The notes under the pieces were generated by a model. The model saw only the letters and a program-made list of their open reading frames with translations, was not told where the DNA came from and made no database searches. Source: an uncultured Oleiphilaceae bacterium (GTDB lineage Bacteria > Pseudomonadota > Gammaproteobacteria > Pseudomonadales > Oleiphilaceae). From it: a stretch of 64,000 nucleotides of DNA. Positions 4,462-33,971 of the stretch are shown here, in pieces. Both the position numbers and the translations under genes were made by a program. Position 1 is the first letter of the stretch. Each line of letters opens with the position of its first letter. Location: the NCBI GenBank assembly GCA_913060665.1, contig CAJXUY010000007.1, forward strand, positions 62,001 to 126,000. The letters are read 5' to 3'.

Positions 4462-6687
4462 ATGAATCACCAATCGACTGACATTAATGTCTCTCGGCGC
4501 CAGTTCTTAAAGGTATCTGTGACCGCCACCGGCAGCTTTTCTCTCGCTTCGTTCTTGCCCGGCTGTGCCACCTTTGGCGGTAAGGCGCTATCAGAAGGGG
4601 GAGACTGGGCGGCTAATGCTTGGCTTGAAATTACCTCTGAATCGAACATCATATTTACCCTGGACCGTGTTGAAATGGGGCAGGGCACGACGACCGGGCT
4701 CACAACATTATTGGCTGAAGAATTAGGTGTTGAGCCGGAGACGGTTACCGTTATTTATGCTCCTGTGGCGAATGATTATCGAAACCCTGAATATGGTTTG
4801 CAGATGACTGGGGGAAGTAACAGTTTATCGACCAGTTGGGGGCAAATAAGACTAGCGGGTGCTACCGCTAGAGAGATGCTGGTAGCGGCTGCCGCAGAAG
4901 TTTATGAAGTGCCGGTTGAGCAGTGCCAGGCAAATGATGGATATGTAGCGTTGGCCGACCATAGCAAAAAATTGAGTTATGGTGAGTTAGCTGTGCTGGC
5001 TGCTTCACAGTCTGTACCCTCAAACCCCCGCTTAAAGCCTGCTGCAGAATTTAGGTTTATTGGTAAGCAGAATAAACGATTAGACATAGCAGGTAAGGTA
5101 AATGGTCGTACAGTGTATGGCATCGATACAGACGTCGAAGGTATGGTCTATGCGGTCATCAGCCGAAGCCCTGTAATAGGCGGAAAAGTTAAACAGTTTG
5201 ACGCTTCGAAAGCATTAGCCTCAAAAGGTATTGTGGCTGTTTTTGAAGTTTACAACGGCATCGCCGTCTTGGCCGAGCAATACTGGCAGGCTCGAAAAGC
5301 GCAACAAACGCTTGAAATCGAGTGGGATGAAGGGCCTCTTGCAGAGTTGTCATCGGATGATATGTTCCAGAGCTTTAAGCAGGCGGCGTTGGCAGACCAA
5401 GGTAAAATAGTCCGTGATGAAGGGGATTTTGACGATGCGGTAGAGGGTGCGGCTCGTGTTTTCGAAGCAGAGTATCACACTCCATTTCTTGCACACGCTA
5501 CGCTTGAACCTATGAATTGTGTCGTTGAGGTGCGCGATAACCACGCTCAGGTATGGGCTCCCACCCAAGCACCTGACCTTGCCCGTATTGCGGTGGCGCG
5601 TGTTACTGACCTTTCGCCTAGTGATGTTGATGTTACGGTTACCGCGATAGGTGGCGGCTTTGGTCGTCGCCTCACTCAAGATTTTATTGAAGAAGCCGCC
5701 GCAGTGGCGACCCAGGCTAAGCGCCCGGTTAAGCTGATGTGGTCGCGGGAAGAAGACACTCAGCATGACTGGTATCGCCCGGCAACGTATCACAAGCTAA
5801 AAGCTACCTTTAATGATACCGGCGGAGTGACTGGCTGGGATCATCAAATTGTTGCGCCTAATTTACTTGACTGGTATATCCGGGATGCTGCGCCAGCACA
5901 GTACCCTTGGGCACCTAAGTTTATGTACGGCATGCTGGGTTCTATTGGCTTGGCCATGCAAGGTGTTGCGGTACCTAAAGATGAAACAGCTATCGAAGGA
6001 GCTGTTAGTGTGCCCTACGATATAGCGAATTTACAGGTTCGTCATACGCATGCAGACATTGGTGTGCCGGTGTCGTTTTGGCGTTCTGTTGGTCATTCAC
6101 AAAATGCATTTTATGTGGAAAGCTTTATCGATGAATTGGCACATGAAACGATGACCGATCCATTTTTGTTTAGACAATCGCTGTTGCAAAACCAACCTCG
6201 CCAGCGTCGAGTATTAGAATTAGCGGCTGAGCAATCAGGCTGGAGTAAGTCGTTACCAAAAGGTCGCTTTAGAGGGATTTCGGTACATAAAAGCTTTAAG
6301 AGTTATGCCGCCCAAGTGGTCGAGTTGTCCGTCGATAACGGCGAGATTAATATGCACCGAGTGGTGTGCGCCATTGACTGCGGTATTGTGGTTAACCCCG
6401 ATATTGTCAAAGCTCAAATGGAAAGCGGAATTATTTTTGCTCTGACGGCTGCGCTTTATGGTGAAATAAGCCTTAAAAACGGGCGTGTTGAGCAATCTAA
6501 TTTCGATGATTATAAATTGTTGCGGATGAATGAAACCCCTGAAATTGACGTATATATAGTTGATAGCAATGAAAGCCCTACCGGGGTAGGTGAACCCGGT
6601 GTGCCGCCATTAGCCCCAGCGGTTGCTAATGCAATATTTGCCGCTACGGGTAAGCGGTTGAGGTCTCTACCGCTGCGATTGACATAA
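4462..6687 (+). CDS. Molybdopterin-binding subunit of a molybdenum hydroxylase (IorB-like), Tat-exported
   Basis: The 741-residue large subunit starts 15 bases after the 2Fe-2S gene and is preceded by GAGGAGG. The N-terminus has a twin-arginine motif (SRRQFLK, about residues 11-17), a hydrophobic stretch and then LPGC, a possible lipobox, so the folded holoenzyme is probably exported and perhaps lipid-anchored. Mo-cofactor motifs include EMGQGTTTG, GGGFGRR and, near the C-terminus, GVGEPGVPPLAP, which carries the catalytic Glu of the xanthine oxidase family. The family oxidises N-heterocycles or aldehydes by water-derived hydroxylation; the substrate cannot be read from the sequence. The next gene, xdhC-like, overlaps its stop by one base (TAATG). 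Confidence 0.9.
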   Translation: MNHQSTDINVSRRQFLKVSVTATGSFSLASFLPGCATFGGKALSEGGDWAANAWLEITSESNIIFTLDRVEMGQGTTTGLTTLLAEELGVEPETVTVIYAPVANDYRNPEYGLQMTGGSNSLSTSWGQIRLAGATAREMLVAAAAEVYEVPVEQCQANDGYVALADHSKKLSYGELAVLAASQSVPSNPRLKPAAEFRFIGKQNKRLDIAGKVNGRTVYGIDTDVEGMVYAVISRSPVIGGKVKQFDASKALASKGIVAVFEVYNGIAVLAEQYWQARKAQQTLEIEWDEGPLAELSSDDMFQSFKQAALADQGKIVRDEGDFDDAVEGAARVFEAEYHTPFLAHATLEPMNCVVEVRDNHAQVWAPTQAPDLARIAVARVTDLSPSDVDVTVTAIGGGFGRRLTQDFIEEAAAVATQAKRPVKLMWSREEDTQHDWYRPATYHKLKATFNDTGGVTGWDHQIVAPNLLDWYIRDAAPAQYPWAPKFMYGMLGSIGLAMQGVAVPKDETAIEGAVSVPYDIANLQVRHTHADIGVPVSFWRSVGHSQNAFYVESFIDELAHETMTDPFLFRQSLLQNQPRQRRVLELAAEQSGWSKSLPKGRFRGISVHKSFKSYAAQVVELSVDNGEINMHRVVCAIDCGIVVNPDIVKAQMESGIIFALTAALYGEISLKNGRVEQSNFDDYKLLRMNETPEIDVYIVDSNESPTGVGEPGVPPLAPAVANAIFAATGKRLRSLPLRLT

Positions 6688-23597: not shown

Positions 23598-24983
23598 TTA
23601 AGAGTCGTTTGGATGGCGTATGAGTAATGTTTTATAGCCACACTTTTTTGCTTCGTCAAAAAACGTTTGAGGAGAGCTTAATGCTTGATCCCCTTTCGTA
23701 TTTAGCACGAGGGCTTCTAAAAGGCAACCGGGAATATTGTTATTGTGGAAGTTAGGCATTCTCGGATACATATTATAGCGATCACAGGTAACGACTGTTT
23801 TCCATATATCAACTTCTTGATTGTTTAATAGTGCTCGAGTGGGGCGCTTGATGCAGGGGTGAGTATCGTCTGCCAAGACTGTGCCGGGGTTCATATGGCT
23901 TATCATTGGTATAATATCGTTACCTCTTGCGGTTAATACGAGTACTAGTTTGGTGTCGCGCAGACGTTCTCCACGTTTGGTATAGAGTACTTTTGAGCCA
24001 TTAATGATGCTGGTTTTCTCTTCTGTGTAGCGAGGGTCGATTGCGATGACTGACTGAAAGCTGTGGCTTAAGTCCTCAATCAAACTGGCGCCAATTCTAC
24101 CTGCGCCACCCAAGATTGCGATAGAATTTCTTTCGGAGTCATTATTTAGTTTGCTCGCGATCTGCATCGCTGATTCGTACATGGCAAATCTAGTGCCGTA
24201 TGCACCATCTACCAGTGGCGGAGCAATGTCGATACCGGCTTTCATACTAAAACCGGGTAGCCTCCCAACCAAAGCAAACCGGTTTGCATTCGGAAATGCC
24301 TTCTGTAAGTCTGCAATGTATTTTCGAACCAGTGTTGAATCAGATGCCAGCTCTTCTTCAGAATAGACCGAAGACACCATAACTCCGCGTGATGAAGCGC
24401 CTTTAATATACGCTGCGACTACAATAGGAGGGCAAACTTTTCTGAACCAGTCTGGGAAATAGGCTCTCTGATCTCCGCGTGTGCCATAGACTGCAAAAAT
24501 CACTTTCGGGTCTACGGCTCTTTTAATAAATGGCCAGCATAAATTTACAGTTAAAAAACCTGTCATTCTCAGTACTATCCAGAGTTGACGCTTAATCTTA
24601 GCTAAGGGTGATACTTTCGGTTTGATTTTATTGTCGTTGGCCGCTTGTTGGTATTCTTCGTCTTTGGGTGTCGTGGTAAATATATGGTTGAGTGCATCGA
24701 TCTCGACGGCAGTTACTTTCTGGAAACGTATTCCAATAACATTTTCTTTTCGGTACGTTATTTCATACTGTGCCTTAATGTTGCCTGTTTTTGTTCTGAT
24801 CGTGATGAGTCCGTGATCTTCCAGTTTTTCGGAATTGACTGAGTCGACAAGTGAAATGCTTGCCCCCCCCACTGACAGGTTTTTAGATCTACCTACGATA
24901 CGGGAATTTTCCGACTCTAGTATTAAAGGAAGGTTAATTGAATGTCGGTCGTTAAGTCTTTCATCCTTTCGGTTCGTTTTCAT
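23598..24983 (-). CDS. PilZ domain fused to a Rossmann-fold dehydrogenase-like domain
   Basis: The 461-residue protein starts with a PilZ domain (about 1-110) that keeps both c-di-GMP-binding motifs: RLNDR (RxxxR, residues 9-13) and NLSVGG (N-x-S-x-x-G, near 38). A linker and a hydrophobic stretch (about 133-150, LWIVLRMTGFLTVNLCWPF) follow, then a second domain with an NAD(P)-binding signature, ILGGAGRIGASLIEDL near residue 290, and a later ADDTHPCIKRP segment. That part resembles amino-acid or acyl-type dehydrogenases such as glutamyl-tRNA reductase or shikimate dehydrogenase folds, but I cannot assign a substrate. The fusion suggests a c-di-GMP-controlled oxidoreductase. The DUF302 gene follows closely. 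Confidence 0.8.
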   Translation of the reverse strand: MKTNRKDERLNDRHSINLPLILESENSRIVGRSKNLSVGGASISLVDSVNSEKLEDHGLITIRTKTGNIKAQYEITYRKENVIGIRFQKVTAVEIDALNHIFTTTPKDEEYQQAANDNKIKPKVSPLAKIKRQLWIVLRMTGFLTVNLCWPFIKRAVDPKVIFAVYGTRGDQRAYFPDWFRKVCPPIVVAAYIKGASSRGVMVSSVYSEEELASDSTLVRKYIADLQKAFPNANRFALVGRLPGFSMKAGIDIAPPLVDGAYGTRFAMYESAMQIASKLNNDSERNSIAILGGAGRIGASLIEDLSHSFQSVIAIDPRYTEEKTSIINGSKVLYTKRGERLRDTKLVLVLTARGNDIIPMISHMNPGTVLADDTHPCIKRPTRALLNNQEVDIWKTVVTCDRYNMYPRMPNFHNNNIPGCLLEALVLNTKGDQALSSPQTFFDEAKKCGYKTLLIRHPNDS

Positions 24984-25187: not shown

Positions 25188-27800
25188 ATGAAGTCTTTTT
25201 TCGGTCGTTTCTTTTTAGCTGTAACCCTATTCTTTGCAATAGCGCCAGCTTATTCGTTTGAGGTTTTAGATAACGCTCAACGTGTCTCCCTCGATGGTCA
25301 GCTCTCGTACTACGAGGATCCCACGGCTGCACTTTCACTTGATGAAGCTGTAACTCTTTATGAAAACGGAGGAATGACTAAAAATACAAATGGCATTCTT
25401 AATTTTGGTTTTAGTGATTCGGCGTTTTGGATTCGAGCATCATTTAAATTTTCCGATGTCTTAAATGCAGATGAAAACTGGATTGTGTCGTTGGACTACG
25501 CCCCATTGGAAAAGGTCGATCTATTTATTCTAGAAGAGGGGGAAATGCAGCATATTGTCTCGGGTACTAGCAAGCCGTTTGATGCTCGGCCTGTGTTGCA
25601 TAGAAACTTAATTTACCCAGTCAAAAATAACGGAGGGTCTGAGTATGAAGTGTGGCTTCGAGTTGAGTCCGATAGCTCTATTCAAGTTCCATTGAGCCTC
25701 TGGACCGCCAAGAAGTATTTTGAACACGAGACTTTCGGCTCTTATGGTTGGGGGATATTTTTTGGAATCTTGATGGCGCTGGGTTTATATAACTTATTTT
25801 TATTTGTTGCTGTAAAAGACCCCGCCTACCTATATTACGTGCTTTACCTTATAGGGTTGTCTGGCGTTGTATTGTTTTTGAATGGGCAGGGGGCGCAGTA
25901 TGTTTGGAAGCACAATGAAGGGTGGAATCAATATGCGCTGCTGACATTTACGTGCTTTTCCGTATTTTGGGCACTTCAATTCTCTCGAGCATTCCTTGAA
26001 ACCCGCAAGACTATACCTCGTTTTGATATGGTTATGTTGGGCCTAATGGGGCTAGTTGTTGTCTCTGCCATCATAGGGTTTATGGGGGGTGATATAAGCT
26101 TCCCTCGTTTGGCGGGAATGATTGCAGGATTGTTCACCATCGTTTTAATGGTCGCAGGGTTCAAAGTTCTTAAAAATGGTAACCCTATCGCACCATATTT
26201 CCTGATTGCATGGTCATTTTTCTTAGGCGGTATTCTGGTGTACTTGGCAAGTGTTTTCGGATTGTCTCCTACCAATTTTTTTACCGAAAGCGCTATTCAA
26301 CTTGGTTCTGCAGGCGAAGCCATTCTTCTTTCTCTTGGGTTGGCCAAGCGGATTAAGATAGAGCGAAAATTAAAATACGAAGCATTGGAGTCAAAGCATC
26401 ATACGATTCTTAAATGGCAGCGAGCGGAAAAAAAATTACTTGAGAGAGCGAGTTATGACTCTCTTACATCGCTCCCGAACAGTACTTTATTGTATAAGTG
26501 CATTGAAGAGCTAAAGGCTGAGCGTTCAGGTGCAGTAAAATCATTTGGGTTAGTGATTATTCATTTCAACCGTTTTCATGAGATCAACAAAACATTAGGT
26601 AAGCGAAACGGTGATCTGTTGTTGATTAGAGCTGCGGATCGCTTGGCTTATGAGGCAGGTAGAATTGACCATGTGTTGCCTGTTGATCGAACGGACGATT
26701 ATTTTCATTTTTTATCAGTGCTAGACGGTATTAATTTTGGCGTATTGGTTGAAATGAGTGTGGACATCAATGCCCCTCATTTTGTGGCTGAAAAACTATT
26801 AGAGGTTATGAAAAAGCCTATCGAACATGAGGGTTTGTTCATTGATATTGATGCTATTGCGGGGGTTTCGCTTTACCCTGTACACGGAGAGGAGCTCGAC
26901 TCATTAGCTCAGCATGCGACTATCGCGTTAGAGAACTCCAATAAGTCATCTCAAAAGATATCAACATACTCCCCGGAGTTGAACTATTACAGTACACGTC
27001 GTCTGTCGCTTATGGGGGACCTGTTAAAAGCGATTGAGTCAAATAGTCTTGATTTGTTCTTACAGCCTCAAGTAGATTTGTCTAGCTCTAATGTAATTGG
27101 TGCTGAAGCCTTAATAAGGTGGGAGCATGACCAGCATGGGTTTGTTCGGCCGGATGAATTTATACCTCTCGCCGAGCAGTCAGGACTTATCCGGCCGCTT
27201 ACCGCGTGGGTAATAGATAAAGTATTGCAATACGACAAAAACTTTCAGGCGAGAGACTATGATATTCAACTCTCTATCAATATCTCCGCCAAAAACATTG
27301 CAGAAGTCAACTTGGTTAAAAATACGCTCGATAAATTACTCGAATATGACGCCTCTCCCAAGCGAATCGTATTTGAAATGACCGAAACCACCATGATGGA
27401 TAACCCTGAAAAAGCGTTAAGTGTATTGAAGGACTTAAGCGATTTAGGGATACAGCTAAGTATTGATGACTTTGGTACTGGCTATTCATCTCTCTCTTAT
27501 TTGAATCAGTTGCCGGTTGATGAGTTAAAAATAGATCGTTCGTTTGTTACAGATATGATTCAAAGCCCACAAAACCAAAAAATCGTTGAAATGACGGTGA
27601 ACCTTGCTCATACCCTAGGTTTAAAGGTGGTGGCAGAAGGTATCGAAGATCGAGAGACAATGTTGCAGCTGCAAAAGCTCGGTTGTGATGTTGCGCAAGG
27701 CTACTTTATTGGGCGCCCAATGCCGGAGGAAGCATTTTTGAGTTGGCTCGAAAAGCACTCAAGTAGCAATGTAAAATCTATTGCTCGTTCCATCAAATAG
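25188..27800 (+). CDS. Membrane c-di-GMP phosphodiesterase: 7TMR-DISM sensor, degenerate GGDEF, EAL (paralogue)
   Basis: The 870-residue protein has a signal peptide (cleavage near APAYS/FE), a 7TMR-DISM extracellular domain, seven membrane segments (about 185-390), a degenerate GGDEF domain and an EAL domain. The GGDEF domain keeps SYDSLTSLPN and HFNRFHEINKTLG; the signature position reads LDGINFGVLVE, so no cyclase activity is expected. The EAL motifs are complete: EALIRWEH (Glu near 640), INIS, EMTE, DDFGTG, LKIDRSF, AEGIE and AQGYF. It is the paralogue of the protein at 948-3590 and is divergent from the PilZ fusion. Confidence 0.9.
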   Translation: MKSFFGRFFLAVTLFFAIAPAYSFEVLDNAQRVSLDGQLSYYEDPTAALSLDEAVTLYENGGMTKNTNGILNFGFSDSAFWIRASFKFSDVLNADENWIVSLDYAPLEKVDLFILEEGEMQHIVSGTSKPFDARPVLHRNLIYPVKNNGGSEYEVWLRVESDSSIQVPLSLWTAKKYFEHETFGSYGWGIFFGILMALGLYNLFLFVAVKDPAYLYYVLYLIGLSGVVLFLNGQGAQYVWKHNEGWNQYALLTFTCFSVFWALQFSRAFLETRKTIPRFDMVMLGLMGLVVVSAIIGFMGGDISFPRLAGMIAGLFTIVLMVAGFKVLKNGNPIAPYFLIAWSFFLGGILVYLASVFGLSPTNFFTESAIQLGSAGEAILLSLGLAKRIKIERKLKYEALESKHHTILKWQRAEKKLLERASYDSLTSLPNSTLLYKCIEELKAERSGAVKSFGLVIIHFNRFHEINKTLGKRNGDLLLIRAADRLAYEAGRIDHVLPVDRTDDYFHFLSVLDGINFGVLVEMSVDINAPHFVAEKLLEVMKKPIEHEGLFIDIDAIAGVSLYPVHGEELDSLAQHATIALENSNKSSQKISTYSPELNYYSTRRLSLMGDLLKAIESNSLDLFLQPQVDLSSSNVIGAEALIRWEHDQHGFVRPDEFIPLAEQSGLIRPLTAWVIDKVLQYDKNFQARDYDIQLSINISAKNIAEVNLVKNTLDKLLEYDASPKRIVFEMTETTMMDNPEKALSVLKDLSDLGIQLSIDDFGTGYSSLSYLNQLPVDELKIDRSFVTDMIQSPQNQKIVEMTVNLAHTLGLKVVAEGIEDRETMLQLQKLGCDVAQGYFIGRPMPEEAFLSWLEKHSSSNVKSIARSIK

Positions 27801-27869
27801 AATTTAACGTTCAGGTTAGTCTGAAATACATATATAACCCTTTCATCTGCTCGTTTTATATTGACGTAA

Positions 27870-27888
27870 CCGTATAATTTTTATACGG
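27870..27888. other. Short perfect inverted repeat after the phosphodiesterase gene
   Basis: CCGTATAA-TTT-TTATACGG, perfect 8-bp arms with a 3-base loop, 70 bases after the phosphodiesterase stop. There is no T-run, so it could be an operator or a weak terminator. Confidence 0.4.
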
Positions 27889-28092
27889 CCCTTCACATTT
27901 CTGAGTATTGGCTATACTTAAGCATAGCATCAGGAAATGAGACTCGAGTGTAGCCACTTCCCCCCAAGTATTCGTTAACATATCAGCAGTTATACTTTGC
28001 AGGTAATGATGGCTGCACAGGGTCGTGGGCTAAGAATTTGTAAGCTTAGGTCGCGCAAGAGTCTTGGTTAATATGAAGGAGTAGGTAAATAT

Positions 28093-28647
28093 ATGAGCGC
28101 TTCGACTACTAAAAAGAGCAATAAAAAAGATACAGAATTATCTCCGGATATTATGGACCCTCAAGCTCAATTGAGAGAGATTCAGCAACTGCTATTTGGC
28201 CAGCAGGTTGCGGAGGTGCGCCAAACGATTGAAACGTTAAGCAGTCACAACGAAAAGCAGTTTTTAGCAATGGATCAGCAGATTATTCAGTCGATCAAGG
28301 AACTCAAAACGCATTTGAGCGGTAAGCTGGATGATCTGTCAGCACATGTTGCCCAACTAAATGAAGCGTCTCAAAACCGAGATGCCCTTATTGAAGGTGA
28401 AGTCTCCTCGGTGCAGCAAGCGTTGGATACTTTTCAAAAGCAAACAATTGCCGCGCAAGACTCGTTGGAATCCCAGCTTTTTTCAGAGGCAGAGAAGCTT
28501 GCGGCTGATATGGAGGGTAAATATAAAGATGTTCTTGAGAAACTGGGTAATACATCGGGAGAGCTGTCTGACCGTAAGACAGATAGGAAGACCCTCGCCG
28601 ACCTGCTAGTTAATATGGCAAACAGTCTGGAAGGTGAACCTGGCTGA
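28093..28647 (+). CDS. Coiled-coil protein, first gene of the GTPase/OmpA/c-di-GMP operon
   Basis: The 184-residue soluble protein is largely alpha-helical with heptad-like spacing from about residue 20 to 150 and a Lys/Ser/Thr-rich N-terminus; it has no signal peptide or membrane helix. I do not recognise the family. ATG follows AAGGAGTAGGTAAAT. The next gene starts within the stop region (a GTG at 28634 overlaps it; the ATG at 28649 is one base after it). It probably acts as a cytoplasmic scaffold or adaptor for its operon partners. Confidence 0.8.
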   Translation: MSASTTKKSNKKDTELSPDIMDPQAQLREIQQLLFGQQVAEVRQTIETLSSHNEKQFLAMDQQIIQSIKELKTHLSGKLDDLSAHVAQLNEASQNRDALIEGEVSSVQQALDTFQKQTIAAQDSLESQLFSEAEKLAADMEGKYKDVLEKLGNTSGELSDRKTDRKTLADLLVNMANSLEGEPG

Positions 28648-28648
28648 T

Positions 28649-30646
28649 ATGTCACAAGCTGAAGGGAATGTGTCTATTGAAAATACAGATCAGAATAATG
28701 CTGAGAGCTCAGTCGGAGAGCTTGAGCCTGACAATAATTATTTAAGACTAAGACGGTTATTGTTGGGAGAGGACTACTCGTCTGCATTAAAGCGTTATAT
28801 CTCAAAAGAGGAAGAGGTAGAGCGCGTATCTGAAGCGCTCCCTAAAGCGGTTAAAAACACCAACCAAGCTGAGCTGGGAGGGGCTTTATCGCCTGTTGTA
28901 GATAAAGCTATCGAAAAATCCATTGAGCAAAACCCCACTCGTATTACTCATATATTGTTTCCTATAATGGGCCCTGCGATTCGAAAAGCTGTCGCGTCGG
29001 CGTTAGCCGAAATGGTTCAATCACTCAACACTCTGCTTGAGAAAAGCTTAACTTTAGGGTCTCTTAGCTGGCGTATACGCGCTTGGCGAGCGGGAATGCC
29101 TTATGCTCAATACGCGCTGTTACAGACGACTCAATATCGTGTAGAGCAGGTACTGCTGGTGCATCGAGAGACAGGGCTACTGTTAAATTCAGTGACAGCC
29201 CCCGAAGTTCATACACAAGACCCTGAGCTGGTCTCTAGTATGTTGACGGCTATTGGTGACTTTGTATCAGATTCTTTTTCTGCCGGTGATGAAACACTTG
29301 AGCGGGTTCGTTTAGGGGAGCTTGAAATTCACCTTAATATGGGACCTCATGCGATTTTGGCGATTGCTGTGAGAGGTTCTGCGTCTGATGAATTAGCCCT
29401 AAAATCGATGACCACCATAGAGACGATTCATGCTCGTTTTGGCCATCAGTTAAATCAGTTTGAGGGTGATAGAGCGCCGTTTGACGAGACAACGCCAACG
29501 TTGTCTGAATGCCTATTGTCACAAAAACTTGAGTCAGATGAAAAACGTAAACCATGGATGGCGGTCTTACTTTTACTGATAGGGGGAGGGTATGGTGTTT
29601 TTAGTGGCATTGAAAGTCGCCAAATAGAGCAGCAGTATATTGCGTTAGAAAAACTTGTAAATGATGAACCAGGATACCTAGTGTTATCCGCTGACTCTAC
29701 AGGCGAAACGCTTAATATTAAAGCGTTGCGCAGCCCCGAGTCTCGCACGACTGACCTTCTGACTGCTGAACTGCTAGCGCATTCTGAAATGCTGGCTCGT
29801 GCGGGATGGTCAATAAATAGCGCTGTTGTGACGGTTATAGAGGATACAGTTGTACATATGGGGCCCGCGCCTACGGTCTTTGTTCAACCTGTTGAAGAAA
29901 TGCCGAGGAGGCCTGTTGTTAATGTTGAGGCCGTTACCAAGGCGTTACTCATTGAAGGGGAGCGGGTAACGATTATTGCTCAAGGTGGGCATTTAAGTGT
30001 AACAGGTGAAGTCAGTGAGGCAACACGTCAGCGCCTTGTTGAAGACCAAACACTCAAACAAACTTATGATGATATCGACTTCTCTGGTTTAATGATTAGC
30101 GATATCTCTTCTGCCCTAGATAGGCTTAAAGAGTTGGTAGATCGTCTTCATAATACTGTTTTTTATTTTGAGCCCAACGAGTCAAGATTGTCTGGAGATG
30201 AATTATTAAAAATTCCTTCAGTTGTAAAAACAATTGAGGCGTTAGAGAAACAAGCTTCAATTATCGGGGTTAGAGATTTGCAGATCATTGTGATGGGGTT
30301 TGCCGATAGTACCGGTTCTTTATTTGCAAACAGCACCGTGAGCCAGCAAAGAGCAGATGGAATTAGATCAATGCTCACAGAAAGCGCAGTGTCGGCAGAT
30401 ATTATGGTGGCGTGGGGGGCAGGGAATATTGATTTGGATAACATTTCTGATAAGGCTCAGCGCAGGGTTACACTTCAGGTACTATACTCTGGGGATGCAT
30501 CAAACTCTGAATCTGTACTAAACTCAGAACAAGCACCTAACGTTGAACCAATGTCAGATGCAGCGCAAACGCTAAATTCAGAGCCGCCTGCAGAGAAGGT
30601 AAATGATATGGACGTCGATCCAGGAGATTCATGGTGGGTAAAGTAA
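28649..30646 (+). CDS. Inner-membrane protein with large cytoplasmic domain and periplasmic OmpA-type peptidoglycan-binding domain
   Basis: I chose the ATG at 28649 (665 residues), with AAGGTG 12 bases upstream; a GTG at 28634 is the alternative. About 300 cytoplasmic residues precede one membrane helix (WMAVLLLLIGGGYGVF), then about 200 periplasmic residues including a BON-like segment (LSVTGEVSEATRQRL) and a C-terminal OmpA domain (VFYFEPNESRL ... VMGFADSTG ... SQQRADGI). The cytoplasmic part contains VEQVLLVHRETGLLL, SSMLTAIGDFVSDSF and ILAIAVRG, which look like a Roadblock/longin-type fold; this is inference. The GTPase gene overlaps its 3' end by 16 bases. Confidence 0.82.
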   Translation: MSQAEGNVSIENTDQNNAESSVGELEPDNNYLRLRRLLLGEDYSSALKRYISKEEEVERVSEALPKAVKNTNQAELGGALSPVVDKAIEKSIEQNPTRITHILFPIMGPAIRKAVASALAEMVQSLNTLLEKSLTLGSLSWRIRAWRAGMPYAQYALLQTTQYRVEQVLLVHRETGLLLNSVTAPEVHTQDPELVSSMLTAIGDFVSDSFSAGDETLERVRLGELEIHLNMGPHAILAIAVRGSASDELALKSMTTIETIHARFGHQLNQFEGDRAPFDETTPTLSECLLSQKLESDEKRKPWMAVLLLLIGGGYGVFSGIESRQIEQQYIALEKLVNDEPGYLVLSADSTGETLNIKALRSPESRTTDLLTAELLAHSEMLARAGWSINSAVVTVIEDTVVHMGPAPTVFVQPVEEMPRRPVVNVEAVTKALLIEGERVTIIAQGGHLSVTGEVSEATRQRLVEDQTLKQTYDDIDFSGLMISDISSALDRLKELVDRLHNTVFYFEPNESRLSGDELLKIPSVVKTIEALEKQASIIGVRDLQIIVMGFADSTGSLFANSTVSQQRADGIRSMLTESAVSADIMVAWGAGNIDLDNISDKAQRRVTLQVLYSGDASNSESVLNSEQAPNVEPMSDAAQTLNSEPPAEKVNDMDVDPGDSWWVK

Positions 30647-31161
30647 TCGCCAAAAAGGTGTGTATGGTTGGCCCGTTTGCCGTTGGCAAAACAAGTTTGG
30701 TCCGTCGCTTTGTAGACAGTATTTTCAGTGACACTTATCTTACGACCATCGGTGTCAAAATATCTAAGAAGCCCGTAGCCGTTAACGGTGACCAAGTACA
30801 GTTAATGATTTGGGATATCGAAGGCGTAGATGTATTTACTGAACTTAAGCCTAGCTACCTGAGGGGTGCTTCCGGTGTCTTGTTGATATTGGATGGCACT
30901 CGCCCTAAAAGCGTCGAGATGGCGGCTGAATTATCTAACGTACTAGGAGAACAGTTGCCTGGTGTTCCCGTTGTTGGACTGCTGAATAAGTGCGATCTGA
31001 TGTATGAGTGGAAACTGGGTGAGTCAGACATAGAAGGGCTTGAGGCGTTAGGTATAAGCGTAATAAAAACAAGTGCTAAAACAGGGCGTAATGTTGAGTT
31101 GGCGTTTGAGTTGATGGTTAACAAAATGGGACTTGGATCAGGAGTGCCTGAGTCGCCATGA
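30631..31161 (+). CDS. Ras/Rab-like small GTPase
   Basis: The 176-residue protein is a single G domain: G1 GPFAVGKTS (14-22), G2 TTIG (38-41), G3 WDIEG (61-65), G4 NKCD (119-122) and G5 SAK (148-150). The residue after G3, where Ras has the catalytic Gln, is Val66, so intrinsic hydrolysis should be slow and a partner may supply GAP function. There is no membrane anchor or lipidation signal. AGGAG sits four bases before the ATG. It overlaps the OmpA-domain gene upstream by 16 bases and the GGDEF-EAL gene downstream by four (ATGA). Confidence 0.92.
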   Translation: MVGKVIAKKVCMVGPFAVGKTSLVRRFVDSIFSDTYLTTIGVKISKKPVAVNGDQVQLMIWDIEGVDVFTELKPSYLRGASGVLLILDGTRPKSVEMAAELSNVLGEQLPGVPVVGLLNKCDLMYEWKLGESDIEGLEALGISVIKTSAKTGRNVELAFELMVNKMGLGSGVPESP

Positions 31162-33344
31162 GCATACTGGAAGGTATTATTGAAGAACTGGGCGTAGCAG
31201 CCTTAGTAAAAGATGGTGCATACTTTCGGCTAGTTAATGCTCAGAGTGGTTGGTTTAGAGATCTTTTAGCGTCACTTTCTTGTCCCGTTCAGGAAGATGG
31301 CTCCATAGTTGATAGTGAGAGCTTATGTCATGCATTTCCGTTTATCGAAAACTTTTTGATAGATGCTGAGGCGGCTTGGGGTGAGTCAGGCGCCAAAACA
31401 GTGAGGTCGGGGATATGGACCGAAACAGACAAGTCAGGCTGTGAGCATCAGTTGGAAGCAAAGGCATGCAGTGTAAATGGTGTTCCTGTTTTACTGATAG
31501 AAAATCATACTACGACGTTCTCAGAACATCATGGGGTCTATCAAAAGGCCCGTGATATCGCGCTATTAAACGAAAAGCTAGTGTCTGAGCTTAATCAGCG
31601 GCAGCGAGAGTTACAGAGTGAGATCGAGCGTTATATTTTGCAGGAAGCCTCTATTAAAGGTGTTGCTGAAAGTGTTAAGGGTCATACTTCTGCGGTGATG
31701 ATTTGCCAGCCCAATGGTCAAATCGAAATGATCAATAAAGCCCTAATTGATATTTATCAGATGGATGATGTTGACCTCAAAAGGGTTTCGTTACTTGATC
31801 AATGGGTAAGTGAGGCAGAAGCACAGTATCCAGAGCTGAAACGAGTGATTGAAAACGGCTCATATTGGGAAGGTGAGTTTGAGAGCAAAAGTGGCAGTGG
31901 TGTTGATCGCTGGGTGCGCCTTACCATAGGGCCCGTCAAGGAGCAGGATGGACAGATCAGCCATTATGTGTGCGTCGCAAACGATATTAGTGAATTTAGA
32001 AGCCTGGATACCTCAAGCGGAAGTGACGGGGGGTATGATTTCACCACTCATTTGCCTAATCGGCGGCACTTTTGGCGGCATATTAACGCTGTTGCCGAAG
32101 GCGGATTGACAGGTGATTTCGGCCTTGGCTTGATGTATATAGACTTGGACTATTTTAAGCGCGTTAATGATGACCTAGGACATCAGGCAGGGGACTTTTT
32201 GTTGAGTGCGGTAGCGTCAAGAATCTCCCGCTCTGTTAAGCATCATGATTTTGTTGCTCATTTAGGAGGCGATGAGTTTGTTGTACTTGTTCGCTATATT
32301 GAAGAGGTTAGCCAGCTTGATATTGTGGCCGACCGGCTGTTGGAATCTATCCATGAGCCACTGTTCGTAAATGGGCAGTCAATTTCGATGTCTGCCAGTA
32401 TTGGCATAACCATTAATGTAGAGTCTAGTTTTGACCCCGCCTTGCTGGTAAGACAAGCTGACCTTGCTATGTATGCAGCCAAAGAGCTGGGTAAAGGGCA
32501 GTCACGTTTTTATGATCCTGCTATGGAGTGTAATATTCCGCATAAGTTACAGCGGGAAAGGGAACTTATAGATGCAATTGACCGACAAGAGTTTGTATTG
32601 CATTTGCAGCCACAAATTAGTATCTCCGGCGAAGAAGAGGTTAGAGTTGAAGCGCTGATTCGTTGGCAGCACCCCGATCATGGTTTGCTTCCACCTGCTG
32701 ATTTTATTGGAATAGCTGAAGAGTCGGGATTGATAATCCCTATGGGCAGTTGGGTATTACGACAAGCGTGCGGGATTGGGGCTGACCTACTGAGTGAGAG
32801 TAAGAAAATATGTATAGCGGTTAATATTTCTGCGAAGCAATTGAGACATCCAGATTTCTATAAAACGTTGACTAACATCCTTTCTGAGACCAGTTTTCCT
32901 GCGTCTCAACTAGAGTTAGAAATTACCGAGAGTTGTTTTTTAGAAGACTTAAATGCAGTGATTTTGCTTATCGAAAAAATTCGTAAGCTTGGCGTTACCA
33001 TTGCGTTGGATGATTTTGGTACGGGTTTCTCGTCACTAAATTATTTGCGCCAGCTCCCCGTGGACTATCTAAAAATAGATCGCTCGTTTATTCAGGGGCT
33101 GGAAATAGACCGGGAAAGCCAAGCGATCACCTCTTCAGTTATTAGTTTAGCGAGTGAGCTCAATATCGATGTTATTGCTGAAGGTGTAGAGACTGAGGCG
33201 CAGTTTGATTTTTTGCGATGCCGTCAGGTCAATTTTGTTCAGGGTTTCTTATTTTACCGGCCATTGTCGCTGAGTGCATTGCTTAAGTCTTACGGTCAAA
33301 TTAAACTTCTAAATGATGAAAATAAGTTTAATAAACCGCAGTAG
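31158..33344 (+). CDS. Cytoplasmic PAS-GGDEF-EAL c-di-GMP enzyme
   Basis: The 728-residue protein has an N-terminal region without a recognised domain (about 1-130), a coiled coil (about 135-165), a PAS domain (about 170-285), GGDEF (about 295-460) and EAL (about 480-720). Both catalytic signatures are intact: LGGDEF near 370 and EALIRW near 498, with VNIS, EITE, DDFGTG, LKIDRSF and AEGVE. The GGDEF inhibitory-site position reads KHHD instead of RxxD, so product feedback is probably lost. There are no membrane segments. Four-base overlap with the GTPase gene suggests coupled translation and a shared pathway. Confidence 0.92.
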   Translation: MSILEGIIEELGVAALVKDGAYFRLVNAQSGWFRDLLASLSCPVQEDGSIVDSESLCHAFPFIENFLIDAEAAWGESGAKTVRSGIWTETDKSGCEHQLEAKACSVNGVPVLLIENHTTTFSEHHGVYQKARDIALLNEKLVSELNQRQRELQSEIERYILQEASIKGVAESVKGHTSAVMICQPNGQIEMINKALIDIYQMDDVDLKRVSLLDQWVSEAEAQYPELKRVIENGSYWEGEFESKSGSGVDRWVRLTIGPVKEQDGQISHYVCVANDISEFRSLDTSSGSDGGYDFTTHLPNRRHFWRHINAVAEGGLTGDFGLGLMYIDLDYFKRVNDDLGHQAGDFLLSAVASRISRSVKHHDFVAHLGGDEFVVLVRYIEEVSQLDIVADRLLESIHEPLFVNGQSISMSASIGITINVESSFDPALLVRQADLAMYAAKELGKGQSRFYDPAMECNIPHKLQRERELIDAIDRQEFVLHLQPQISISGEEEVRVEALIRWQHPDHGLLPPADFIGIAEESGLIIPMGSWVLRQACGIGADLLSESKKICIAVNISAKQLRHPDFYKTLTNILSETSFPASQLELEITESCFLEDLNAVILLIEKIRKLGVTIALDDFGTGFSSLNYLRQLPVDYLKIDRSFIQGLEIDRESQAITSSVISLASELNIDVIAEGVETEAQFDFLRCRQVNFVQGFLFYRPLSLSALLKSYGQIKLLNDENKFNKPQ

Positions 33345-33373
33345 AAAAGGCATCACCCGTTAATGCTGGCTAC

Positions 33374-33622
33374 TCAAAATGAGGTCGGTTGTTCTATTTC
33401 GTAAATAGCGTCACTAATCGTATCTAGCTTGCTTTCGAGCACAGTTTGAGCGTCATGTAGGCCTCGATTGTAGTAAAACGCACCAACCTCTTTTGCAAAA
33501 AAATCTAATAGAAAATCCGCGTCAAATTGACCAATTTCATGATCTAGTTGATCCTCGAAATAGCGTTGAATTTTACCAATTAGTATATTTTTTTCGTCAA
33601 TTGAAAATTTTATTTCTGGCAT
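33374..33622 (-). CDS. DUF2164-family small protein
   Basis: The 82-residue protein (from the ATG at 33622, MPEIKFSIDEKN) matches DUF2164 in length and pattern: an N-terminal KIQRYFEDQLDHEIG helix, LLDFFAKEVGAFYYNRGLHDA and an acidic end. A TTG start at 33640 would add six residues, but AAGAG precedes the later ATG. Function is unknown. It is 14 bases after the 56-codon gene upstream and is probably co-transcribed with it. Confidence 0.85.
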   Translation of the reverse strand: MPEIKFSIDEKNILIGKIQRYFEDQLDHEIGQFDADFLLDFFAKEVGAFYYNRGLHDAQTVLESKLDTISDAIYEIEQPTSF

Positions 33623-33636
33623 GGGAGCAGCTCTTA

Positions 33637-33807
33637 TCAATCTTTTTTATCAATGCTAATTTCTATTTGTTTAGTATTTCCTGCAAACCACTTTTGAACG
33701 TATAGAGAGCCTATGATGGGGGCCGTTCCTTCTGCTGGGGCCTCTTTGTAGCGGACACTGTTCTTGGTTTCTTTTTCATATTCAAATTTCACGATCATTT
33801 TTGACAT
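33637..33807 (-). CDS. Small protein of 56 residues, unknown function
   Basis: The frame encodes MSKMIVKFEYEKETKN through to a Lys/Asp-rich end, with no membrane segment. AAGGGA lies about six bases before the ATG, and the stop is 14 bases before the DUF2164 start, a normal operon spacing. Strand-like, charged composition suggests a small beta-rich fold (VKFEYEKE, IIGSLYVQKWF, IEISIDKK). I do not recognise a family. Confidence 0.7.
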   Translation of the reverse strand: MSKMIVKFEYEKETKNSVRYKEAPAEGTAPIIGSLYVQKWFAGNTKQIEISIDKKD

Positions 33808-33971
33808 GCCGTTCCCTTTACGTGGTCGTAATATAGATGGTTATGTGTTTAAACGAACAGAATAACAGGAACTGTATAGGATGCCTAAGTGCTAAATGGC
33901 TGTCGACTTTCAGATATCGTCTATACTGTTTTAAGAGTTGTAATGCCGATAAAATTAAGGAGAAGGTCTGT

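Follow-up and report, generated by a model that had tools for sequence, protein, structure and literature searches.

The closest described counterparts of the locus reported here are the Group 1 Rup GTPases, catalogued in 2014 by genome comparison together with three conserved neighbors (PMC4316618). One of these neighbors is a coiled-coil protein; another has an unidentified conserved domain that is often followed by a transmembrane helix and an OmpA domain; the third is a signaling output, either a diguanylate cyclase/phosphodiesterase or a histidine kinase, whose N-terminal Gln is invariant. The Gln of the G3 motif is reported as missing from the GTPases, its supply in trans is speculated, and it is proposed that the eukaryotic Rab, Ran, Ras, and Rho GTPases go back to the transfer of a gene like those of Group 1 Rup. 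Here we describe a four-gene operon in a 64,000-nucleotide stretch of DNA from an uncultured Oleiphilaceae bacterium (the window; contig CAJXUY010000007.1, positions 62,001 to 126,000). Judged by its sequence, the operon is a member of the Group 1 Rup kind, because every tested feature of that kind fits: a small single-domain Ras-like GTPase without the G3 Gln, the same set of neighbors, and an output whose N-terminal region carries a conserved Gln, Q129 of gene 4, which we infer to be the Gln of the logo in PMC4316618. The window thus shares with the published neighborhood all four components, the Gln-less GTPase, the output Gln, and a GGDEF-EAL or kinase output; it differs in that the membrane-protein domain and the output N-domain, left unassigned in PMC4316618, are predicted here to have longin and PAS folds, and the range of outputs in our analysis is wider. 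The operon is real, conserved, catalogued as a kind, and apparently uncharacterized, with the predicted Rab-longin pairing as its added interest, and we think it probable that it forms a transmembrane G-protein relay running from the envelope to the cytoplasm. No experimental study of Rup systems was found in the open-access literature among the matches listed; an earlier note on this DNA, which knew of no characterized system of this composition, was right to that extent, although the composition itself had been described in PMC4316618.

MglA/MglB and the actinobacterial conservons, the latter being operons with a kinase-like protein, likewise provide a small GTPase with a dedicated partner, but they have an MglA-type G3 motif and a Roadblock partner, whereas the window has a Rab-type G3 motif and a predicted longin partner. 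YfiBNR couples OmpA-type wall binding to an enzyme of cyclic di-GMP (c-di-GMP) metabolism, a combination that the window also contains, but it has no GTPase. In eukaryotes, the longin Rab guanine nucleotide exchange factors (GEFs) Fuzzy-Inturned, Mon1-Ccz1, and TRAPP pair a Rab-like GTPase with a longin-domain protein, and the Inturned-Fuzzy longin complex is reported, in the part of the source that is accessible, to be the GEF of Rab23 (PMC6864590). The window differs in being bacterial and in having one longin gene, whose product is membrane-anchored and carries OmpA, and second-messenger or kinase outputs, and a GEF role is suggested by analogy. As far as the accessible portions of both papers go, longin domains are derived from the Roadblock partners of MglA (PMC3521125) and occur in eukaryotes and Asgard archaea, the Roadblock/longin families being thought archaeal in origin (PMC10933270). 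Among the matches listed from the open-access literature, none describes a longin next to a Rab-like GTPase in bacteria.

The operon consists of four tightly packed open reading frames (ORFs), all on the + strand, at positions 28093 to 33344 of the window. Gene 1 (28093..28647) encodes a coiled-coil protein of 184 amino acids (aa) with no Pfam family above the curated cutoff; gene 2 (28634..30646), a predicted longin-transmembrane-OmpA protein of 670 aa from GTG 28634, with an alternative start at ATG 28649; gene 3 (30631..31161), a Rab-like small GTPase of the Group 1 Rup kind (176 aa); and gene 4 (31158..33344), an output protein of 728 aa with a PAS-type N-domain followed by PAS, GGDEF, and EAL domains. 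Genes 1 and 2 overlap if GTG 28634 is used and are separated by 1 base if translation starts at the in-frame ATG 28649, while genes 2 and 3 overlap by 16 bases and genes 3 and 4 by 4 bases. The earlier note had described these four genes and their spacing, and the ORF calls agree with it, the 1-base gap holding for the ATG start. Pfam bears out the domain content that it had listed (OmpA, Ras, PAS_9, GGDEF, EAL), hydropathy and Pfam confirm about 300 cytoplasmic residues, one membrane helix, and an OmpA domain in gene 2, and the signature residues of both active sites, which it had called intact, are present in gene 4. A promoter and terminator scan of 27700-33900 gave a site count not above that of shuffled sequence.

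The earlier note had also made its idea of a shared machine depend on conservation of this order, and the order is kept in relatives. It recurs in six of the seven fetched, the seventh, L048, having an adaptor-like ORF as its fourth gene. Upstream of the 148 GTPases with at least 3.2 kb of sequence on that side, a longin match is found in 122, a coiled coil in 122, and both in 120, leaving 26 with no longin match; downstream, where at least 1.5 kb was available, 127 of 156 are accompanied by an output adaptor of type A or type B (see below). Because the four-gene order is the same in these six relatives and longin lies upstream in 122 of 148, the arrangement is not a matter of chance.

Relatives were collected by a GTPase-alignment scan of genome contigs, which gave 123, of which the best 80 were kept; the fetched set comprised 170 GTPases from 168 loci, with some genomes present twice (L044/L058, L046/L057, L062/L171, and L136/L177, among others) and 161 distinct aligned rows. 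The best 80 of the 123 span about 14 phyla, many of them as metagenome-assembled genomes, and a longin match is present in 63 of these 80 loci, from 13 phyla; the others run into the end of their contig, have a different arrangement, or lack a longin match. The single Cloacimonadota locus has only about 500 bases of upstream sequence, and in the Treponema locus L095, the longin gene lies downstream of the GTPase, not upstream. Occurrence of the GTPase is patchy: among 58 genomes, 8 have it, one of them being the source of the window, and it is missing from two of four congeners. The same 8 genomes hold adjoining matches to the GTPase and to the N-terminal part of gene 2, the remaining gene 2 matches being OmpA-type stretches. 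At E ≤ 1e-35, the GTPase occurs in 33/292, 11/297, 12/247, and 10/235 genomes in the phyla of L075, L079, L094, and L066, respectively, each count including the genome on which it was centered (22 of 39 places in the scan of L075's phylum were fetched). Among 369 gammaproteobacteria, 32 genomes have the GTPase (E ≤ 1e-25; 29 of 35 places fetched with their neighbors), 30 match the longin profile (E ≤ 1e-10), and 29 have both (Fisher p 1.5e-38, uncorrected for kinship).

Gene 3 matches Pfam Ras (E 1.9e-28) and carries the motifs GPFAVGKTS, TTIGV, DIEG, NKCD, and TSAK. Its G3 motif, DIEGV (aa 62-66; 30814..30828, +), is of the DxxG type and has Val66 where Ras and Rab have the catalytic Gln. Across the fetched loci, 14 of the 170 GTPases have that Gln and 156 lack it. 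At L209 and L122, two Rup GTPase genes stand in tandem within one locus.

The membrane protein encoded by gene 2 has a single membrane helix at about aa 308-330 (hydropathy averaging 1.79 across 19 residues), placed by model and hydropathy in the inner membrane at aa 309-330 (29558..29623, +). The residues that precede it begin with a block of predicted cytoplasmic helices, aa 35-138 (28736..29047, +; pLDDT 55-76), which includes the motif LRRLLLGED at aa 39-47, and continue with aa 166-298 (29129..29527, +), modeled with a b-b-a-b-b-b-a-a topology (b, strand; a, helix). This topology and the structural matches listed are longin-like, and we predict that the cytoplasmic domain is a longin, an assignment that looks new. 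Longin-family sequence matches were weak (E 0.03-0.05 in 3 of 55 members and E 0.022 in 1 of 61, in single-sequence scans, which are weak for the longin fold), and a PDB sequence search with the longin alignment returned four matches at E 0.27-7.9, none named longin. Beyond the membrane, the model has periplasmic alpha/beta units that look BON-like by eye (aa 348-512; 29675..30169, +) and an OmpA domain supported by family match and fold (aa 490-620; 30101..30493, +; Pfam E 3.7e-8 over aa 532-609), with YfiB among its structural matches; domains of the OmpA family bind peptidoglycan. In the Dehalococcoidia loci L076, L091, and L106, the longin protein stops right after the transmembrane helix, the layout of a tail-anchored longin.

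Gene 1 has an N-terminal IQQLLFGQQ and a C-terminal KxDRxxLAxLL..MA..L motif. A similar motif stands near the start of both the coiled-coil proteins ([IV]R-x-[IL]LFG-x-Q) and the longin proteins (LR-x-LLLG-x-E), its Arg being present in 116 of 136 and 106 of 135, and its Gly in 129 of 136 and 92 of 135, respectively; gene 1 of the window has Gln at the Arg position. This resemblance may mark a common docking site, which would apparently be new.

Gene 4 matches PAS_9 (E 7.6e-10), GGDEF (E 1.6e-37; aa 293-447, 32034..32498, +), and EAL (E 1e-71; aa 468-702, 32559..33263, +) in Pfam. Its first 168 residues were modeled as a PAS fold and a long helix with a mean pLDDT of 91, the structural matches being moderate (Z mostly 7-8), and we predict that aa 1-117 (31158..31508, +) form a PAS-fold adaptor, here called type A, joined to a signaling helix at aa 118-167 (31509..31658, +). 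Within that helix, Q129 (31542-31544) and R132 both reach a weighted conservation of 0.96 in 63 sequences. A second adaptor, type B, occurs as a stand-alone protein, in tandem with type A, or fused, and the adaptor Gln is present in 89 of 98 type A and 63 of 65 type B domains. Profile comparison did not establish homology between the two types: a single pairwise run gave P 0.011, which does not convince by itself. The adaptors are common to unrelated outputs and sometimes stand alone beside the GTPase (L116, L128, L130, L132, and L048); at L048, the GTPase is followed, in place of a full output gene, by a type B adaptor of 131 aa that stands alone (5923-6318, −), and histidine kinase genes lie on the opposite strand. 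Granulosicoccaceae loci contain comparable stand-alone adaptors, and in some cyanobacterial loci counted as adaptor-less there is another PAS-like adaptor whose LxQxANE stretch looks similar by eye. Output types were assigned across loci from motif patterns and checked with Pfam in ten, which comprised HD-GYP proteins, histidine kinases with or without receiver and Hpt domains, GGDEF proteins, a class III cyclase, a sigma-54 activator with a Fis-type helix-turn-helix, a SpoIIE phosphatase, and PAS alone. Of the reading put forward in the earlier note, a conserved module joining a small GTPase, an OmpA membrane protein, and a c-di-GMP enzyme is supported, but c-di-GMP is one output among many. 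Nothing specific to polarity or motility emerged from the analysis, which included no test aimed at either.

How such a relay might work can be sketched from the observed sequences, gene order, co-occurrence, and conservation and from the predicted folds; the binding steps, the GEF and GTPase-activating protein (GAP) roles, the input signal, and the sign of any c-di-GMP response we infer. The gene 2 protein would be held in the inner membrane, its OmpA domain facing the periplasm and its predicted longin and helices the cytoplasm. The analogy of longin Rab GEFs suggests that the longin part recruits the Rab-like GTPase and probably drives nucleotide exchange upon a change in envelope state. 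The GTP-bound GTPase would then bind the PAS-fold N-domain of the output protein, where Q129, near the foot of the signaling helix, could complete the Gln-less active site, making the output an effector and possibly also a GAP; binding or hydrolysis would switch the GGDEF-EAL enzyme via the helix, and the coiled-coil protein may act as a scaffold. We advance only tentatively the wider proposal that bacteria of at least a dozen phyla run a dedicated Rab-longin machine across the inner membrane, in which a membrane-tethered longin protein activates the Rab-like GTPase and a PAS receiver supplies the catalytic Gln to switch interchangeable outputs.

Covariation was computed for 103 loci common to the four partner blocks, with identical pairs removed for this purpose only; OmpA served as the control because it belongs to the same chain as longin and lies outside the cytoplasm, though its conservation differs. 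In the 80% run, the share of pairs with the GTPase above z 3.5 was 0.0037 for longin, 0.0031 for the N-terminal helices, 0.0009 for the coiled coil, and 0.0006 for OmpA, and with 50% weighting, the values were 0.0023, 0.0022, 0.0008, and 0.0006. The longin pairs of the 80% run include GTPase residues D67, R78, V66, and T38, and the highest-ranked type B pair of that run is V66 with a column occupied by Trp in L068. In type A, T38 pairs with the Q129 column (column 124, the labels being shifted by a dropped insert) at z 5.0, among the top five. Of the 14 GTPases with a G3 Gln, nine have no recognized partner, two of them (L120 and L125) because the contig ends; in the other five, the partner has Arg in three and Gln in two, compared with 120 Gln and 7 non-Gln for the remaining GTPases (Fisher p 0.003; the truncated L127 partner left out).

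Several observations weigh against the proposed roles of longin and Q129. With 40% weighting, at an effective number of 2 to 12, the values become 0.0003, 0.0002, 0.0004, and 0.0008, and the longin and N-helix excess is lost; enrichment in the switch regions, considered as proof of an interface, was rejected as unstable to weighting. V66-Q129 is not an outstanding pair, ranking 653 of 25,277 in type A. The association of G3 Gln with partner Arg is close to a single event because the Arg cases form one Desulfobacterota-type group, and the cyanobacterial GTPase of L239 has the G3 Gln, yet the next protein seems to keep its own. Overall, the covariation pattern is suggestive only.

We regard as unlikely a rival reading in which the longin protein serves only as a membrane platform or is the GAP, exchange is spontaneous or due to another protein, and the PAS domain is an ordinary effector whose Gln is structural. 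That R132 and other residues nearby are conserved as strongly as Q129 speaks for it, as does the unremarkable pairing of GTPase position 66 with the partner Gln; lack of the G3 Gln in nearly all the GTPases, however, calls for some compensation, and the Desulfobacterota-type group is unusual at both sites. We find it improbable that the four genes are co-transcribed without forming one signaling chain, the enzyme answering to its own PAS domains and the GTPase to something else: the output type varies widely, longin and GTPase lie on separate contigs in genome G340, and some GTPases have no longin match upstream, but the order is conserved in 120 of 148, co-occurrence is nearly complete in gammaproteobacteria, and unrelated outputs have the adaptor domains in common, at times stand-alone beside the GTPase. 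Least probable is a reading along the lines of the comparison drawn in the earlier note, a divergent Roadblock domain of the MglB type in an MglA/MglB-like polarity system: Roadblock and longin share a core fold (PMC10933270), a helix precedes the first strand in the model as in Roadblock, and one of 55 members matches Robl_LC7 (E 0.081), but the model resembles a longin both in its pair of C-terminal helices and in the structural matches listed, and gene 3 is Rab-like, with DIEGV rather than the TVPGQ or GTPGQ given for MglA. A profile comparison with Roadblock was not significant, Roadblock, although related in fold, is not among the 50 matches listed, and the host genome has no PF03259 match at E ≤ 1e-5.

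Other candidate c-di-GMP genes lie near the operon in this genome (a 4.4-Mb assembly in which an EAL search gives 27 places). Directly upstream, at 25188-27800 (+), is a 7TMR-DISM receptor with EAL and a degenerate GGDEF whose signature is absent by eye; at L042, a related EAL-protein ORF likewise adjoins the coiled-coil gene. Farther upstream, 23598-24983 (−) encodes a PilZ domain and then a long stretch without a clear Pfam match, a possible further c-di-GMP-related gene.

Should the longin assignment be true, GTPase operons that have been on record since 2014 but lack a mechanism would gain a named regulator, a switch, and an effector, together with residues that can be mutated. On the wider proposal, the pairing of Rab and longin that serves membrane traffic in eukaryotes would have relatives in bacteria, held together in a single operon, and a longin partner beside these GTPases, if real, would bear on where the Rab-longin pairing began. 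Bacteria would possess, alongside two-component systems, a modular transmembrane relay with swappable outputs.
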